This document shows positions 2,170 to 8,494 of a stretch of 64,000 bases of DNA, one piece after another; positions within the stretch are counted from its first letter, which is position 1; every line of letters starts with the position of its first letter. The stretch comes from a virus. The DNA is taken from the IMG/VR virus record IMGVR_UViG_3300033747_000022, positions 1 through 64,000 of that record, one strand, 5' to 3'. Below the pieces are notes generated by a model. The model was given only the letters and a program-made list of their open reading frames with translations. It was not told where the DNA came from and did no database searches. A program made the translations under genes and the position numbers.

Positions 2170-2466
2170 TTAAATTTTTAAGTCAAAATCATCTATGTTG
2201 TGCATCCTATCTCCTATATAAATATCTGCTGAGGGTTTTTTAAAAATTAATTTATGGTATTTAACATTCCATTTTTCAAATTGCTTTTCAGTAACAAAGC
2301 GCCAGTCTATATCTGTTTCTGTACCCCTTGCTGTGAAGTACCATATAGTATTTCCTTCATCATATAATCTGTTAAACATTTTTATTTTTTCTTTTTTTGG
2401 CTTAGCATCATGATAGTTTTTCTCTTGTGTACATATAGTTCCATCTATATCTACAACATATTTCAT
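2170..2466 (-). CDS. HAD-superfamily phosphatase, capsule-biosynthesis (EcbF/BcbF) type
   Basis: This 98-residue protein starts with the HAD nucleophile motif DIDGTIC (Asp6 nucleophile, Asp8 acid/base). FTARG supplies motif II, a lysine-rich stretch near residues 70-77 may supply motif III, and IGDRMHNIDDF is the motif IV region. Size and motif wording match the small capless EcbF/BcbF-like phosphatases of polysaccharide loci, which probably dephosphorylate sugar phosphates. It overlaps the preceding cytidylyltransferase gene by four bases (ATGA), implying coupled translation and a shared pathway. All key residues look intact. The substrate is unknown. Such an enzyme is unexpected inside a tail-fibre operon. 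Confidence 0.85.
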   Translation of the reverse strand: MKYVVDIDGTICTQEKNYHDAKPKKEKIKMFNRLYDEGNTIWYFTARGTETDIDWRFVTEKQFEKWNVKYHKLIFKKPSADIYIGDRMHNIDDFDLKI

Positions 2467-3128
2467 TTATTTTCCCACTTCCATTTAGCAAATTCATAAT
2501 CCTCTTTGGTGTCTATATCTATTACTTCTTTGTTTGGTACTTCTATTAAAGAATGGTTGTCCTTTAGCATCTGCCCATCTTTAAAGAAATTATCTTTGTT
2601 AAAAATATGAAAGCAGTGAGCAGCTTCGTAATAATCAGGTATTTCTTTTGTTGTCAGCCTCTCATAGTTTATATCTGTTAGGCATCTATTCTCATTATTA
2701 AATAACCAGTTTTTATAAACTTTTACGCTTGTTGCATAATTGCCCTCACAGTAATCTTCATCTAAGCTGTCAAATGTCTCTAATGACTTTAATATTGTTT
2801 CTTTTTCTAAAAAAGCAAGGCACGGATTTAAAAACATTAAGTGGGTATCTTCTACTTCTTTTAAGTCTTTAAATATATACTCAAGCGGGCCATCAACTAA
2901 GGCCGTATCTTCATCTCTTAAAATAACTGTTAGATTATCATATTTTTGAGCAATCTCTACAAGCTCTTTGTCGTAGCATAGTGCGTATTTATTATACTTA
3001 TCTGGCAGGCTGTTTAGCTTTTTGCAGGCTATATCCCAGAGGTTTGTATCTCCTAAAGGAAGTATTAATTTGTTTGGAAGCCTTTCGCTTTGTAATCTAC
3101 CAGGAATAAAAACTCCGATTTTTTTCAT
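2463..3128 (-). CDS. CMP-sugar cytidylyltransferase-like protein (CTP_transf_3 family)
   Basis: The 221-residue protein begins with VFIPGRLQSERLPNKLILPLG, equivalent to the IPARxxSxRLPxK nucleotide-binding loop of CMP-KDO synthetase, CMP-sialate synthetase (NeuA) and SpsF-like proteins. DEDTALVDGPLEYI (about 92-105) and a terminal VIDIDTKEDYEFA, which recalls the DIDxxxDLxxA ending of this family, support the assignment. Members transfer CMP from CTP to an acidic or other sugar. The length is slightly under the usual 230-250. It lies between a radical SAM gene upstream and a HAD phosphatase with which it overlaps, a grouping typical of surface-sugar loci. The sugar cannot be told from sequence. 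Confidence 0.85.
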   Translation of the reverse strand: MKKIGVFIPGRLQSERLPNKLILPLGDTNLWDIACKKLNSLPDKYNKYALCYDKELVEIAQKYDNLTVILRDEDTALVDGPLEYIFKDLKEVEDTHLMFLNPCLAFLEKETILKSLETFDSLDEDYCEGNYATSVKVYKNWLFNNENRCLTDINYERLTTKEIPDYYEAAHCFHIFNKDNFFKDGQMLKDNHSLIEVPNKEVIDIDTKEDYEFAKWKWENK

Positions 3129-3147
3129 TTTTTAACTCCTTTTAATC

Positions 3148-3951
3148 TCAATATTTTATACCGGGATTTTCCCTGGTATACCTACCCTCTTCTTTAATGC
3201 AGTACTTGCACTGCTCGGGAAAATCTAAGTTTTGAATTCTTAACTGCAGGCCTTTTAGTTTTTTAGAATCCAATATTGATTTAAGACTTTTGTTTTTTAT
3301 GTTACCAAGTACAAATTCCTGATGGATATCATTATCGCTTCTGAAGTTGCAGCAGGGCATCACATTCCCGTTGTAGTCTATACCAAGAAAATGAAAGGGT
3401 TCATAGCATTTCTTTTTTCTTATTTTTTTATCTGCTTTTTCTAAAGAGCCCGCCCTGTCTCCAAAGCTTTCCAGTCTGGCCCAGTCGCTAACATACACTA
3501 CTTCCATGTCGTGACCAAAACCGTATATCTTATTATCTATTATTTCTGTTATCTCAAAATTTAAATCTTCCATTCTTTGAATACAGTAGCCTAAACCTTT
3601 GTTGTCGTAATCCATTATTGAAAGCTCGTCTATTTCAACTCTATCTAAAATGGAGTTTGTAAGATAATCTCCATTGGTGTTTGTTACAAGTCTTGCTTCA
3701 GGTAATAACAACCTTGCTATTTTAGTATACTGAGTAAAAATTTCTTTCAGTGCAAAAGGTTCATTATACCTTGAGTAACTTATTGTTCCTTTATAATCGA
3801 TGGACTTGAGTTCGTTTAAAATATTTGTATAATTAGTCTTAGGCAGTATCTTTTTTATCTTTCGATTTATATATTTATTAGGACACCAATTACATGTTCT
3901 GTTGCAATAGCTGTGTATTTCTATTTCTACCATTCTTAGATTAGTGTACAT
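3148..3951 (-). CDS. radical SAM / SPASM-domain protein
   Basis: The 267-residue protein has the radical SAM cluster motif CNRTCNWC (CxxxCxxC) at residues 17-24, which binds the [4Fe-4S] cluster that cleaves S-adenosylmethionine. A C-terminal SPASM-type region follows: Cys near residue 190 (KKCYEPF), NGNVMPCCNF, the LGNIKNKSLKSI landmark and a final PEQCKYC. SPASM proteins modify peptides or, in some polysaccharide loci, act with sugar enzymes. ATG at 3951 follows AAGGGGG. It is first in the three-gene cassette and lies 36 bases downstream of the -10 box of a strong promoter. The substrate could be a small metabolite, a sugar nucleotide or a virion protein. Confidence 0.88.
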   Translation of the reverse strand: MYTNLRMVEIEIHSYCNRTCNWCPNKYINRKIKKILPKTNYTNILNELKSIDYKGTISYSRYNEPFALKEIFTQYTKIARLLLPEARLVTNTNGDYLTNSILDRVEIDELSIMDYDNKGLGYCIQRMEDLNFEITEIIDNKIYGFGHDMEVVYVSDWARLESFGDRAGSLEKADKKIRKKKCYEPFHFLGIDYNGNVMPCCNFRSDNDIHQEFVLGNIKNKSLKSILDSKKLKGLQLRIQNLDFPEQCKYCIKEEGRYTRENPGIKY

Positions 3952-3986
3952 TTTGGCCCCCTTTTTATTCTTTCCTTCTATATATA

Positions 3987-4015
3987 ATTATACCATATTC
4001 TGGACCATTTTTCAA
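3987..4015 (-). promoter_or_regulatory. sigma-A-type promoter for the enzyme cassette
   Basis: On the minus strand TTGAAA (4010-4015) is separated by exactly 17 bases from TATAAT (3987-3992), a consensus-quality vegetative promoter. It sits in the 82-base gap between the 1486-residue fibre gene and the radical SAM gene and directs transcription into the latter. The spacer begins AATGGTCC, matching AGTGGACC in the second promoter at 28365-28393. Confidence 0.85.
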
Positions 4016-4033: not shown

Positions 4034-7000
4034 CTAAACCTCTGTGACTACTACATTCGTAGGGCTTTTAGTTACAGTTTTGGGCTGTAAATCATTGAAA
4101 GGTTTTTTTATTTCATGCCATGCTTTTATTATTTCGTCTGCATAATATTTATTAGAAATTAAAACCTCATCTATCACGGAATTGACGTGCTCTTCGTTCT
4201 TATTTTTGGAACCGAAATATATTATATCTGAAGAAAAAAATTCCGGCAGATTGAAACTGTTTTTAATAAACTTCTCGCTGTCTATAAAGATTGCCATCTC
4301 ATCAGGACCCCACTTAAAAGTAAAGCGTTTAAATCCGGGCTCATAAACATGGTTTGCAGTAACTTCCTGTGCTGTTGTGCCGTCATGGATTCTGAATCTG
4401 AAGGTATTATCGCTTAAGTTATAGTAAGCTATAAACTGACCCTCTGCAGCAAACTCTCCTATGCTAAATAATCTCTTGTAACCTGAACTTCCTTTAAAAT
4501 CTACATCACTTGGTATCTTAAAAGCCATCGATATTGTTCCTGAATTTGTATTTAAATTAAGGTCTGCTGTATTATAGAACAAAACTCCCTCATCTACGCT
4601 GTGGATTCCAGCACCGTTTTTAAATAATCCAGCTTCTATTGAAGCTGTGAAATCTCCTGCTGGATAAACTCCCTTTGTCGATGTAAAATGCTTATCGAAA
4701 TGGAATATATTTATCTCAGGGTCACTTACTATATCAGCTTCAGAGTAAAGAATAGCCTCTTCCTGCTTGGCATCTGTAATTGAGTTATATAAAATGACTC
4801 TTTTAGATTCCAAATCATCAAATAGTGTTCTTACTTCAAGTCTTGTTGCATTTGTTGTCGTAATATCTAAAGGGTAAAGGTCAGAATCAAGACCTACCCA
4901 CTCTGAAAGTTTAACCTCTAAATCTATTAAAGACTGTTCGTAAGACTCTTTGATAGTGACTATATTCTTTTCTTCAGCTATCTGAACCAAGTCGACACTC
5001 TCTGTCTTTAAGCTTTCTAATGTTGTCTGAAGAGTGTTGGCTTCTGCTTTTGTAATAACAGAGTCCATTGAGAATCTATCAATCTGGTTTTGTATCTCAG
5101 TCTCTAATGAGTTTATCTCAGCCTGAGACCATGCTATAGCAGCATCCTGCCTGAACTTTGTTATCTCATTTAAAAGCTCTGCCTTGGTGCTCATTACATT
5201 ATCGAATTTTATTTCTATATTATCTTTATCGCTAACAGCTATATCAACAGGGTAAGACTCTAATCCTATCCATGAGTTTAGCTCAAGCTCTAATTCGTTT
5301 ATCGCATTTTCTGCTGCAGTTCTTTTGTCAGCAAGCGATGTAGTGTTGTGTGTTGATGTGGAAATAATAGAACTTGCTACTGTATTCAAGGAAGACCACT
5401 CTGATTTAACTCTTTCTTTTGAGCCCCTTAAAGTTTCAGCTTCTATTCTTGTCAGTTTTAAGTCATCTACAAATTGGCTCAGCTGGTTTCCTAAAGATGA
5501 AAAGCTTTTGTTTAAATCATTGATATCATCTGTTAGCTTGTCGTTTATTACTTTAGGATTGTATCCCTCTTCATACTGAGTGTCTGTTCCTATAACTATG
5601 TGGTCAGCACTCAGTCTACCTCTAACATCTAGCTTATCTATTTCAAGGTAGTCAATGTGGGCTGTATTAATCATGGCGTTTTCTATCTGAGCTGCCTTTG
5701 TTATAATCGAAGCTGCAGCCAGCTTGTCACCTGTAACAGAGCCGTTAGCAATTAAGTCTGCTTCTATATAAATATTTCCCGTGGTTGAGTCAACAGCAAA
5801 GATTGGTTTTCCAACCTCAGCTCCGTCTTCTGTATCTCCAAAAACAAAGAATCTGTCGGCCATTACAGAGAATTCAGATTCTCCATTTTCGCTGGCAAGA
5901 CCAAAGCCTGATATAACTTCTTTGCCGTTTGCATGCTCTCTTACCTTGACTGTAAATTCGTTGCTTAACTGTCTTACCTGACTTGTGGTGGACTCTATTC
6001 CGTACCATTCACATTTTTTGATAATCCCGTTTTGAACTTCTTTGATGTCGTTTACTATTAAGCCCGAGCCTTCATCTATCTTATATCCGCTTAAAAGACC
6101 AACTTCGTTTCCTTCAATATCAGCCATCAACCCTGTTGTCTGGTAGCTGTTCCAGAGCTGAATCTCGTCAAGATAGCCGCTAAAAAAGTTGGAATACTCT
6201 GCTGAGATAATACCAGAAGCTGGTGATTTTAGTTTTGTAGTACCAAAAGCAAATCCCTCTGATAAGTAAGATAAATTAAAGCTGTCTGTTATTTTGCTTT
6301 TAACTACTTCTCCATCAACTTTTAGGAAAAGCTTACCTGCTGGTCCGTCAGCTATAGCCTCTATCTCATACCATCTATCTTTGCTTAAATTTTCCAGTCC
6401 ATAATCTATACTCTTTTTAACTTCATTTTCTACAACCGTAAAATCAAGATTATTATTATAAAGTGATACCTCAAGCCCGCTGACATTATCTCCACCTGCA
6501 AAAAGAGCCTGATGCCCTTCAAATTCTGTAAAGTTAACCCTTAATTTTATCGAAAGAACATTGTTGCCAGGTACCGAGGCTAAAGTGTTAAAGTCAATCC
6601 AGCTTTCAACACCTCTAAACCTAAGATAACTTCCTTCATCTATGTTGATATGCCTTACTGTCGACTCAATAGAGTCAGCATTCTGGCTGATTTCTGTCTG
6701 GTTTAATTCTATGTTGCCTTCGTTTGTGTCAAGTCTATTTACTGCCGATGTAATATTTTCAGCGTTGACTGTTATCGCGGCTTCATTAGCTGATATATTA
6801 CCTTCGTTTGTAGTAAGTCTTTCAGCATGGAGGCCGATATCAGTCTCGTTTTGAGAAATAGAAGTCTGGTTGGTTGAAATTGAACCCTCGTTACCGCTGA
6901 CCCTTGTTTCAAGGCCTAAAATTGTAGACCCTTCAGGTATAGGTTCGTTCCACTTAAAGCCCTCTCCTTTAAGCTGGCTTATGGTGTCAACCACGCTTAC

Positions 7001-8494
7001 ATCAACTTCCTTGGCTGTTACACCTCTTTTGATTAAAGCGTCAACTGCAAGCTCTTTCATTGTCTTCTTTACTGCATAGCGGACTACTATATCTGTTAAT
7101 CCATCAGGAAGATTTGGTGTTGCAGATAAAACTAGGTGTATTTCCTCTCCTGGTTCTTTCCCGTACCATTTAATGTCATTTCCTTCTACATCTTGATGAG
7201 GTAGTTGAAGTCCGTTCTCGTCAACTAAATCTATAACCTCAACTGCATTACCATCTGCATCAAAAAGCTCTCCGTAATTCTCGTCAACAAAATCAAAAAA
7301 TGCATTAGCATCTTCTAAAGATGAACCCACATAAATATCCTCCGGGCCAGAATACTGGATTAAATAATCCATAGGTGTTATATCCTCTGTTAAAGTGTAG
7401 CTTTCTTCTACCGGATATCCTATTTCCTTATCCCAGTAAGCAGACCTTGACTCAAGGTTATTTATTTTATCTGTTAAGCCGTCAACAACTGATGACTTAT
7501 TTAAAAGATTAAAGTTGATAACTGTTTTTCTGTCACTTACTACAACAGCATCTTTAAAATAGGTGTAATAACCATCAGCTTCGGCTTTTACTGTGTAAGG
7601 CCCCTTTGGGATTCCTTCCCATAAAGCCTTAAAGCTACTTAGCTCATCTGAGTTTATAGTTTCTTCTCTCTCGACAAGGGTGATTGTTGCTGGAATTGAT
7701 TCTCCTGCAAGGTTAAAAGCTTCAACCTCCAAGTCTCCAAGGCCTGACTCTAAAGCTTTTAAGGCTGTAGAACCTATATCTACTGCAGTATTTGCTATTA
7801 CTTCTACATTCGTTATTGTCTCGGTCTCAAAACCGCTGGCATTGATTGTAATACTGTGTGTCCCTGCAGTTAGTCCGGGCAGTGTGAAATATCCATCAGG
7901 TCCTGTGACAATACTCATTCCTGATTCTACCTGAGCATTTGCTATCCCTACACCGTCTTCTCTTGTTACTCTACCTGTTACATCTCCAACTTCGGGGTCC
8001 AGGGCTATAATACCCATATCTGTTACCCCGCCGTTGGTTATTATTATATTCTTTCTTGCTTTTGTATAGTGTCCATCTGCACTTACTTCTACTAAGTATG
8101 TATCAGAAGCTACCCCTGTAGCCTTGAAATCTCCGTCTTCATCTGAAGTGAAGGTGTAATTATCGAAGTTTCCATAAAGGCTTATTGTAGCTCCTTGAGG
8201 GACTGTGCTACCGATTAATGTTCCCGGTCTTGGCAGGAGATAAATCGTTCCTATTTCTTTAACACTATTTTTTTGAACATTAACTTCTATAGTTTTTGTT
8301 TCATAGTCTGGATGGTAAATCATTACTTTCTGCAGCCCAACCTCAGCTTCAACTATGAACTCTCCTGTAGTTCCAGTGATGGTGGAGTTTCCAGTAACTA
8401 CAATAGTTACATTATCTACTGGGTCTTCAGCTGTCTTTACTTTGATAAACCCGTGTATTTTACCGGGCTTTGGGTCTAAAAATATCTGGCCCAT
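4034..8494 (-). CDS. giant multidomain tail fibre / central appendage protein
   Basis: The 1486 residues read as a modular fibre. Residues 1-340 contain tandem carboxypeptidase-regulatory-like beta-sandwiches (for example GRVTREDGVGIANAQV then GPDGYFTLPGLTAGTHSI). A coiled coil of NEGxIxxNxxxI repeats lies at about 540-615. A first LamG-type lectin sandwich spans about 620-790. A block like the C-terminal domain of lambda J-type proteins (DUF1983) holds SEFSVMADRFFVFGD and FAVDSTTGNIYIEADLI (about 870-930). Two tandem helical repeats of about 110 residues, each with an ELxSWxGL motif, lie at 1010-1125 and 1140-1255. A second LamG-type domain begins after HFDKHFTSTKG (about 1265-1470). RBS is AAGGAGGT. 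It is a probable receptor-contacting fibre; the adsorption role is inferred. Confidence 0.85.
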   Translation of the reverse strand: MGQIFLDPKPGKIHGFIKVKTAEDPVDNVTIVVTGNSTITGTTGEFIVEAEVGLQKVMIYHPDYETKTIEVNVQKNSVKEIGTIYLLPRPGTLIGSTVPQGATISLYGNFDNYTFTSDEDGDFKATGVASDTYLVEVSADGHYTKARKNIIITNGGVTDMGIIALDPEVGDVTGRVTREDGVGIANAQVESGMSIVTGPDGYFTLPGLTAGTHSITINASGFETETITNVEVIANTAVDIGSTALKALESGLGDLEVEAFNLAGESIPATITLVEREETINSDELSSFKALWEGIPKGPYTVKAEADGYYTYFKDAVVVSDRKTVINFNLLNKSSVVDGLTDKINNLESRSAYWDKEIGYPVEESYTLTEDITPMDYLIQYSGPEDIYVGSSLEDANAFFDFVDENYGELFDADGNAVEVIDLVDENGLQLPHQDVEGNDIKWYGKEPGEEIHLVLSATPNLPDGLTDIVVRYAVKKTMKELAVDALIKRGVTAKEVDVSVVDTISQLKGEGFKWNEPIPEGSTILGLETRVSGNEGSISTNQTSISQNETDIGLHAERLTTNEGNISANEAAITVNAENITSAVNRLDTNEGNIELNQTEISQNADSIESTVRHINIDEGSYLRFRGVESWIDFNTLASVPGNNVLSIKLRVNFTEFEGHQALFAGGDNVSGLEVSLYNNNLDFTVVENEVKKSIDYGLENLSKDRWYEIEAIADGPAGKLFLKVDGEVVKSKITDSFNLSYLSEGFAFGTTKLKSPASGIISAEYSNFFSGYLDEIQLWNSYQTTGLMADIEGNEVGLLSGYKIDEGSGLIVNDIKEVQNGIIKKCEWYGIESTTSQVRQLSNEFTVKVREHANGKEVISGFGLASENGESEFSVMADRFFVFGDTEDGAEVGKPIFAVDSTTGNIYIEADLIANGSVTGDKLAAASIITKAAQIENAMINTAHIDYLEIDKLDVRGRLSADHIVIGTDTQYEEGYNPKVINDKLTDDINDLNKSFSSLGNQLSQFVDDLKLTRIEAETLRGSKERVKSEWSSLNTVASSIISTSTHNTTSLADKRTAAENAINELELELNSWIGLESYPVDIAVSDKDNIEIKFDNVMSTKAELLNEITKFRQDAAIAWSQAEINSLETEIQNQIDRFSMDSVITKAEANTLQTTLESLKTESVDLVQIAEEKNIVTIKESYEQSLIDLEVKLSEWVGLDSDLYPLDITTTNATRLEVRTLFDDLESKRVILYNSITDAKQEEAILYSEADIVSDPEINIFHFDKHFTSTKGVYPAGDFTASIEAGLFKNGAGIHSVDEGVLFYNTADLNLNTNSGTISMAFKIPSDVDFKGSSGYKRLFSIGEFAAEGQFIAYYNLSDNTFRFRIHDGTTAQEVTANHVYEPGFKRFTFKWGPDEMAIFIDSEKFIKNSFNLPEFFSSDIIYFGSKNKNEEHVNSVIDEVLISNKYYADEIIKAWHEIKKPFNDLQPKTVTKSPTNVVVTEV

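Follow-up and report, generated by a model that had tools for sequence, protein, structure and literature searches.

A putative CMP-nonulosonate gene set with radical SAM and ParB/sulfiredoxin-fold genes in a phage tail-fibre region

Why should a phage carry, among its tail-fibre genes, three genes of families typical of activated-sugar pathways? The window, the 64,000-nucleotide stretch analysed here (positions 1 to 64,000 of IMG/VR record IMGVR_UViG_3300033747_000022), belongs to a phage genome of 203,584 bases (203.6 kb) and encodes, on its minus strand, a radical SAM protein of 267 aa (3148-3951), a CMP-sugar (nonulosonate-type) cytidylyltransferase (CT) of 221 aa (2463-3128) and a cap-less HAD phosphatase of 98 aa (2170-2466), putatively a nonulosonate-9-phosphate phosphatase. 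As a preliminary description of the locus had it, the three ORFs are intact and tightly linked, with a gap of 19 bases (20 in that description) between the radical SAM and CT genes and a 4-base ATGA overlap between CT and HAD, and they sit between structural genes at 4034-8494 (Phage_Tail_Tip, carboxypeptidase-regulatory and laminin-G domains) and 800-2134 (fn3 domain). The description also gave them a consensus promoter of their own. A predicted sigma-70-like promoter (TTGAAA-17-TATAAT, a pattern match at 3987-4015, minus strand) does lie upstream of the triple, with a score of 11/12, an extended -10 and the top rank among 35 matches in 10 kb, but 34 such matches are expected by chance, so that only score and position favor the candidate at 4015-3987.

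The putative sugar-activating genes of the triple

Profile matches and motifs bear out the families first assigned to the triple (SPASM radical SAM, cytidylyltransferase and HAD). The CT matches CTP_transf_3 above the cut-off (1e-8), scores 35.8 bits against PF02348 (CMP-NulO/CMP-Kdo synthetases; cut-off 22.6), and has an invariant RxxSxRxPxK motif and a DxD at D204/D206. A narrower identity, PseF, was rejected, as the CT scores 49.7 bits against TIGR03584, for which the cut-off is 205.7. The HAD protein falls below Pfam cut-offs, scores 19.2 bits against the EcbF/BcbF model TIGR01689 (curated cut-off 162), matches PHROG 1238 (9e-26) and has the catalytic DxDGT. The phage also encodes a CTP synthase (176093-176881), which could feed CMP-sugar synthesis, and an anaerobic ribonucleotide reductase, which suggests an anaerobic host.

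The GC content of the triple (31.9%, compared with 34.0% for the genome and 37-38% for the flanking fibre genes) does not clearly mark the triple as a recent insertion. Moreover, a recent insertion from a host capsule locus was rejected because few bacteria have the CT: among 84,980 species scanned by pattern, it turned up at three loci, of which two lie in phage regions and the third is beside GT2 genes in Coriobacteriaceae (L046), and it is present in only one of 391 genomes of one bacterial class, that one being the starting genome. Among GenBank phages, neither the CT nor the ParB-like proteins described below have a match, the radical SAM protein has one weak match (uncultured) and NeuB has three.

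NeuB and the scattered parts of the gene set

A nonulosonate synthase is encoded elsewhere in the same genome. A complete NeuB of 273 aa (101,579-102,400 of the phage genome; PF03102, 9e-77) retains the metal-site histidines H197 and H218 and matches PDB chains at 7.5e-53, the best being the solved NeuB 6ncs (290 aa). Only the TIM-barrel domain is matched, and the C-terminal SAF (antifreeze-like) domain is absent. NeuB synthase, HAD phosphatase and CMP synthetase are thus all present in this genome, and in relatives their genes are contiguous or fused. A matching enzyme set is known to convert mannose-6-phosphate and phosphoenolpyruvate to Kdn-9-phosphate, which is dephosphorylated and activated to CMP-Kdn (PMC6200933). 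The HAD phosphatase, together with the mannose-6-phosphate isomerase domain found in relatives, fits this phosphorylated Kdn route, and mannose-6-phosphate is the plausible substrate feeding NeuB and the HAD, the isomerase-domain support coming from the relatives. We consider it likely, judging from sequence comparisons, that the phage encodes a CMP-nonulosonate pathway. The activated-sugar idea of the preliminary description therefore stands, with a sugar class far more specific than it had named, viz., a nonulosonic acid that is probably Kdn-like.

What does not stand is the picture of the triple as a self-contained module, since the set also includes NeuB, ParB/sulfiredoxin-fold proteins and additional radical SAM genes, and is divided into three parts that lie apart, of which the triple is one. 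A second part comprises three tandem radical SAM paralogs (189.9-192.5 kb) and two ParB/sulfiredoxin-like genes (192.5-194.2 kb). The contig ends share an exact and unique 59-base terminal repeat, and the only other match of the junction is to a diverged (66%) TnpB region; the genome is thus most simply circular, which brings the ParB/radical SAM block into the fibre region that contains the triple, about 11.5 kb downstream of it (on the minus strand, around the circle), with fibre genes and a TnpB remnant between. NeuB, the third part, lies 98 kb from the triple, a distance that weakens the case for their co-regulation and that we count against a joint module. Near the second radical SAM cluster the phage also encodes an alpha-amylase-family protein (L026:2479-3588). 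One protein family (DUF2828 and VWA domains, TROVE-like, in the Pfam list of the region) is represented both just downstream of NeuB, from 102831 onward (L021:18831-20000), and near the split module of another phage (L048:2917-4482).

The separation could mean that IS605-like elements split an ancestral cluster whose pieces no longer form one working pathway here. A C-terminal TnpB remnant (Cas12f-like TNB domain) is present in the fibre region at 43-231 of the window, and a full-length TnpB (100191-101321) lies 260 bases upstream of NeuB, so that an IS605-type rearrangement may have moved NeuB; the two TnpB copies may be traces of the rearrangement by which the module was split. In addition, a NeuB-like ORF at 188.3 kb (188315-188938; L026:4315-4938) encodes a short paralog of 207 aa in which part of the barrel and the conserved histidines are missing and which is degenerate or repurposed. 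Against such decay, the ORFs of the triple, NeuB, both ParB-like proteins and all four radical SAM proteins are intact with conserved catalytic residues, and a second phage (G002) carries an intact split arrangement, and we regard a defunct pathway as highly improbable.

The set is also not confined to this genome; confinement would have counted against the proposed module. Protein searches of IMG/VR found a ParB-like gene, one to three radical SAM genes, CT, usually HAD and/or a cupin, and NeuB together in a dozen or more phage contigs that are only distantly related, and the set appears from these sequence surveys to occur almost only in phages. There it usually adjoins baseplate, tail-fibre or lysis genes, and its neighbors also include portal and head-tail connector genes. 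Fusions tie the members further: a CT-HAD fusion is present in L045 and L124, and in L124, where the module is at its most compact, a single protein combining ParB-like and radical SAM regions (L124:4937-6577) adjoins the fused CT-HAD and NeuB. The HAD is fused to a MannoseP_isomer cupin (mannose-6-phosphate isomerase) in L052, as seen by profile, and in L048 and L075, as seen by sequence, and L049 and its near-identical relatives encode this cupin as a separate protein. In L125/G012, CT-HAD-NeuB and three ParB-like genes occur with no radical SAM of the window family; next to CT-HAD-NeuB (L125:1518-7816) are genes for a protein that resembles U32 peptidases, for a radical SAM protein of another kind, for a glycosyltransferase-like protein and for a small tryptophan-rich-repeat protein that is a possible modification substrate.

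The radical SAM and ParB/sulfiredoxin-fold proteins

The radical SAM protein matches the SPASM (9e-13) and Radical_SAM (3e-4) profiles, and its best profile match is the BtrN HMM (8e-44). Its CxxxCxxC motif (C16/C20/C23) is more than 90% conserved in relatives and shares the numbering of the radical-cluster cysteines of BtrN, and the four invariant ligands C182, C200, C248 and C251 align with BtrN C169, C187, C232 and C235, in accordance with the single auxiliary 4Fe-4S cluster of BtrN-type twitch radical SAM dehydrogenases. R166 aligns with BtrN R152, which is reportedly the proposed base according to structural work on BtrN. The predicted structure (pLDDT 92.9) finds BtrN as the top Foldseek match (PDB identifier 4m7t; E-value 9.5e-16, TM scores 0.70/0.76), followed by SpeY and DesII, all three being sugar or aminocyclitol enzymes, with viperin-like folds that act on CTP as more distant neighbors. 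BtrN carries out a two-electron alcohol oxidation with its auxiliary cluster as the electron acceptor (PMC9012708). Thus, the SPASM-type radical enzyme of the preliminary description was rightly recognized, and it resembles sugar dehydrogenases such as BtrN and SpeY and not peptide maturases; a maturase identity was rejected, with NCBIfam maturase models scoring far under their cut-offs and BtrN being the best match by both sequence and fold. We regard the window protein as a putative BtrN-like sugar-alcohol dehydrogenase of the twitch/SPASM type, for which the conservation of R152 as R166 is suggestive. BtrN F188 and E189 are replaced, which makes a different substrate likely, and that substrate need not be a nonulosonate since the radical SAM gene occurs without the CT in 58 surveyed loci of other phages. 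Some of these CT-less homologs (L053, L056, L059, L062 and L067) are found near apparent replication genes.

No PDB chain matches the ParB-like protein in sequence, but its predicted structure (pLDDT 89.9) contains a middle domain that matches sulfiredoxin with a probability of 1.00 (E-value 2.7e-3) and ParB/Noc CTP domains with a probability of 0.99, E-values that are modest; a ParB/sulfiredoxin fold is assigned on these matches. No PDB matches were found for its N- and C-terminal domains, and a relationship between the N-terminal domain and a 169-aa protein encoded beside ParB-like genes found no support. In place of the FGGCHR of sulfiredoxin with its catalytic Cys, the family has EGxHR and no conserved Cys, a motif that presumably keeps the nucleotide-phosphate HR of sulfiredoxin. 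ParB folds bind cytidine nucleotides, and the ParB/sulfiredoxin fold includes phosphotransferases such as serine kinases. The number of ParB-like genes (1-3) tracks the radical SAM and fibre genes and not NeuB.

These properties allow other assignments. The ParB/sulfiredoxin-fold protein could be a sugar kinase that supplies the NeuB substrate, with transfer left to an unrecognized fibre domain or to the radical SAM protein; the phosphotransferases of the fold, the HR presumably retained in EGxHR and the phosphorylated intermediate implied by the HAD all agree with this. A kinase is nevertheless improbable, given that genomes with mannose-6-phosphate isomerase domains need none and yet have ParB-like genes, whose number does not follow NeuB. 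Equally improbable, in our estimate, is a free small-molecule product, for example an oxidized CMP-sugar or a nucleotide analog acting on the host, with no glycan made. The CTP binding of ParB folds, the action of BtrN, SpeY and DesII on small antibiotic sugars, the CTP-acting viperin-like folds among the structural neighbors and the failure to find a transferase would be explained by it. Also, the radical SAM enzyme BlsE acts on a cytosine-linked sugar (PMC3715490). Such a product would, however, leave unexplained the location among fibre genes, where late expression is expected, and the constant ParB-like partner; no known exporter and no resistance or target gene was seen.

Possible transfer to the virion and relation to known systems

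The preliminary description saw no glycosyltransferase near the triple, and indeed none was found in the whole phage genome with GT2, GT1/4 or MptE-like models. A comparison of 86 distinct viral NeuB genes revealed two kinds of clusters. An MptE-like glycosyltransferase is nearby in 44, with neither radical SAM nor ParB-like genes in any of them, whereas 13 have a radical SAM gene (10 of these also a ParB-like gene) and none an MptE-like transferase. Over whole contigs, ParB-like genes are present in 13 of 13 of the present type vs. 0 of 39 with an MptE-like transferase, and the profile of that transferase matches all three tested contigs of the other type vs. none of the 13; radical SAM genes are found in 12 of these 13. 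The NeuB proteins of the present type form one well-supported group, as do the CTs, so that the exclusion may reflect a single evolutionary event and its Fisher p-values do not represent independent evidence. In most members of these groups without a radical SAM gene, the contig is cut off, genes are fused or the cluster is split; L125/L126 and the CT from Coriobacteriaceae are the true exceptions. Among the families listed when 83 other proteins were scanned against Pfam (one list giving 25 of 51 families), none is a transferase, a GT2 gene is present in two of 11 related viral contigs, one of them GtrB-like and near the module (L052), and L125 has a GT1/4-like gene as judged by eye.

Based on these observations, we propose that NeuB would condense a sugar phosphate, likely mannose-6-phosphate, with phosphoenolpyruvate to a nonulosonate-9-phosphate such as Kdn-9-phosphate, from which the 98-aa HAD would remove the phosphate before the CT forms the CMP-sugar. 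The BtrN-like protein would oxidize a hydroxyl of the free, CMP-bound or attached sugar to a ketone, its auxiliary 4Fe-4S cluster accepting the electrons, and the sugar would be transferred to a virion protein encoded nearby, such as a tail fibre, with the ParB/sulfiredoxin-fold partner encoded where a glycosyltransferase gene would otherwise be expected. The first three steps draw on family membership, motif conservation, fused genes and co-occurrence, and the oxidation on homology and fold, while the case for transfer consists of gene location and mutual exclusion with the glycosyltransferase. The Kdn-like nature of the sugar, the action of the radical enzyme on a nonulosonate, the transfer or acceptor role of the ParB-like protein and the tail-fibre target may thus each be proposed. 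We put the chances of the composite, a phage CMP-nonulosonate pathway with radical oxidation decorating the tail fibre, at about even. A more specific proposal, which we consider unlikely, is that the ParB/sulfiredoxin-fold protein represents a hitherto undescribed class of transferase that depends on CMP-nonulosonate and, with its radical SAM partner, places an oxidized nonulosonic acid on the tail fibres of phages that lack a classical glycosyltransferase.

A different destination would be the host surface, with the phage-made CMP-nonulosonate, perhaps oxidized, added to the envelope by host glycosyltransferases to block superinfection or change the receptor. The failure to find a phage glycosyltransferase, the GtrB-like gene near the module in L052 and the single module CT beside GT2 genes in Coriobacteriaceae (L046) are in line with this, and phage or prophage genes are known to remodel host nonulosonic acids, as EpaA/EpaB do with the pseudaminic acid of the Acinetobacter capsule (PMC12053666). 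Yet the phages in which these genes accompany tail-fibre and baseplate genes have very different hosts, each of which would need a suitable transferase, the set contains no membrane protein, flippase or acyltransferase, and a non-exhaustive look at this genome noticed no lysogeny genes; we therefore hold modification of the host surface to be rather unlikely.

To our knowledge, glycosylation of phage virions has been little explored and its enzymes are mostly unknown. The compact, almost phage-restricted set offers a testable route to sugar-coated tails which, if true, accounts for a family of unannotated fibre-operon genes, and a ParB-fold protein where a glycosyltransferase is expected could reveal a new type of transferase. 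The data hint that some phages sugar-coat their own tails by an unfamiliar route. A non-exhaustive search of the open-licence literature found no report of BtrN-like dehydrogenases combined with ParB-fold proteins in fibre regions, and nothing that brings phage, radical SAM and nonulosonic acid together.

Individual parts of the set have counterparts. The Kdn pathway of Bacteroides thetaiotaomicron and Prymnesium parvum likewise consists of a NeuB-family synthase, a HAD-type phosphatase and a CMP-sugar synthetase (Kdn-9-phosphate synthase, Kdn-9-phosphate phosphatase and CMP-Kdn synthetase; PMC6200933 and references therein), and the mannose-6-phosphate isomerase domain linked to the set in phage relatives is a further likeness; the present module differs in being phage-borne, in its ties to radical SAM and ParB/sulfiredoxin-fold genes, in a short NeuB without SAF and in a substrate assigned by analogy. 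BtrN (2-deoxy-scyllo-inosamine dehydrogenase of butirosin) and SpeY (spectinomycin) share with the window protein the twitch fold, one auxiliary cluster and the Cys positions, BtrN also the R152/R166 arginine, but identity is only about 24%, F188 and E189 of BtrN are not conserved and the partner genes are different. With sulfiredoxin, KorB, Noc and PadC, the ParB-like protein shares the predicted fold of the middle domain and a GxHR-type phosphate-binding turn, and it differs from them in lacking the sulfiredoxin Cys and in having extra N- and C-terminal domains. The marine phage clusters of NeuB, CT, HAD and MptE-like genes found here employ the same three families for CMP-nonulosonate, but they carry the MptE-like transferase, often with epimerase or transferase genes, and never a ParB-like gene, and their CT is only about 27% identical to that of the window. 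EpaA/EpaB of Acinetobacter prophages are likewise phage-encoded enzymes of nonulosonic acid chemistry, though they convert the existing nonulosonic acid of the host capsule and come with no NeuB/CT/radical SAM set (PMC12053666). Thus, the type of pathway and phage-borne nonulosonate chemistry, as in EpaA/EpaB, are already known.
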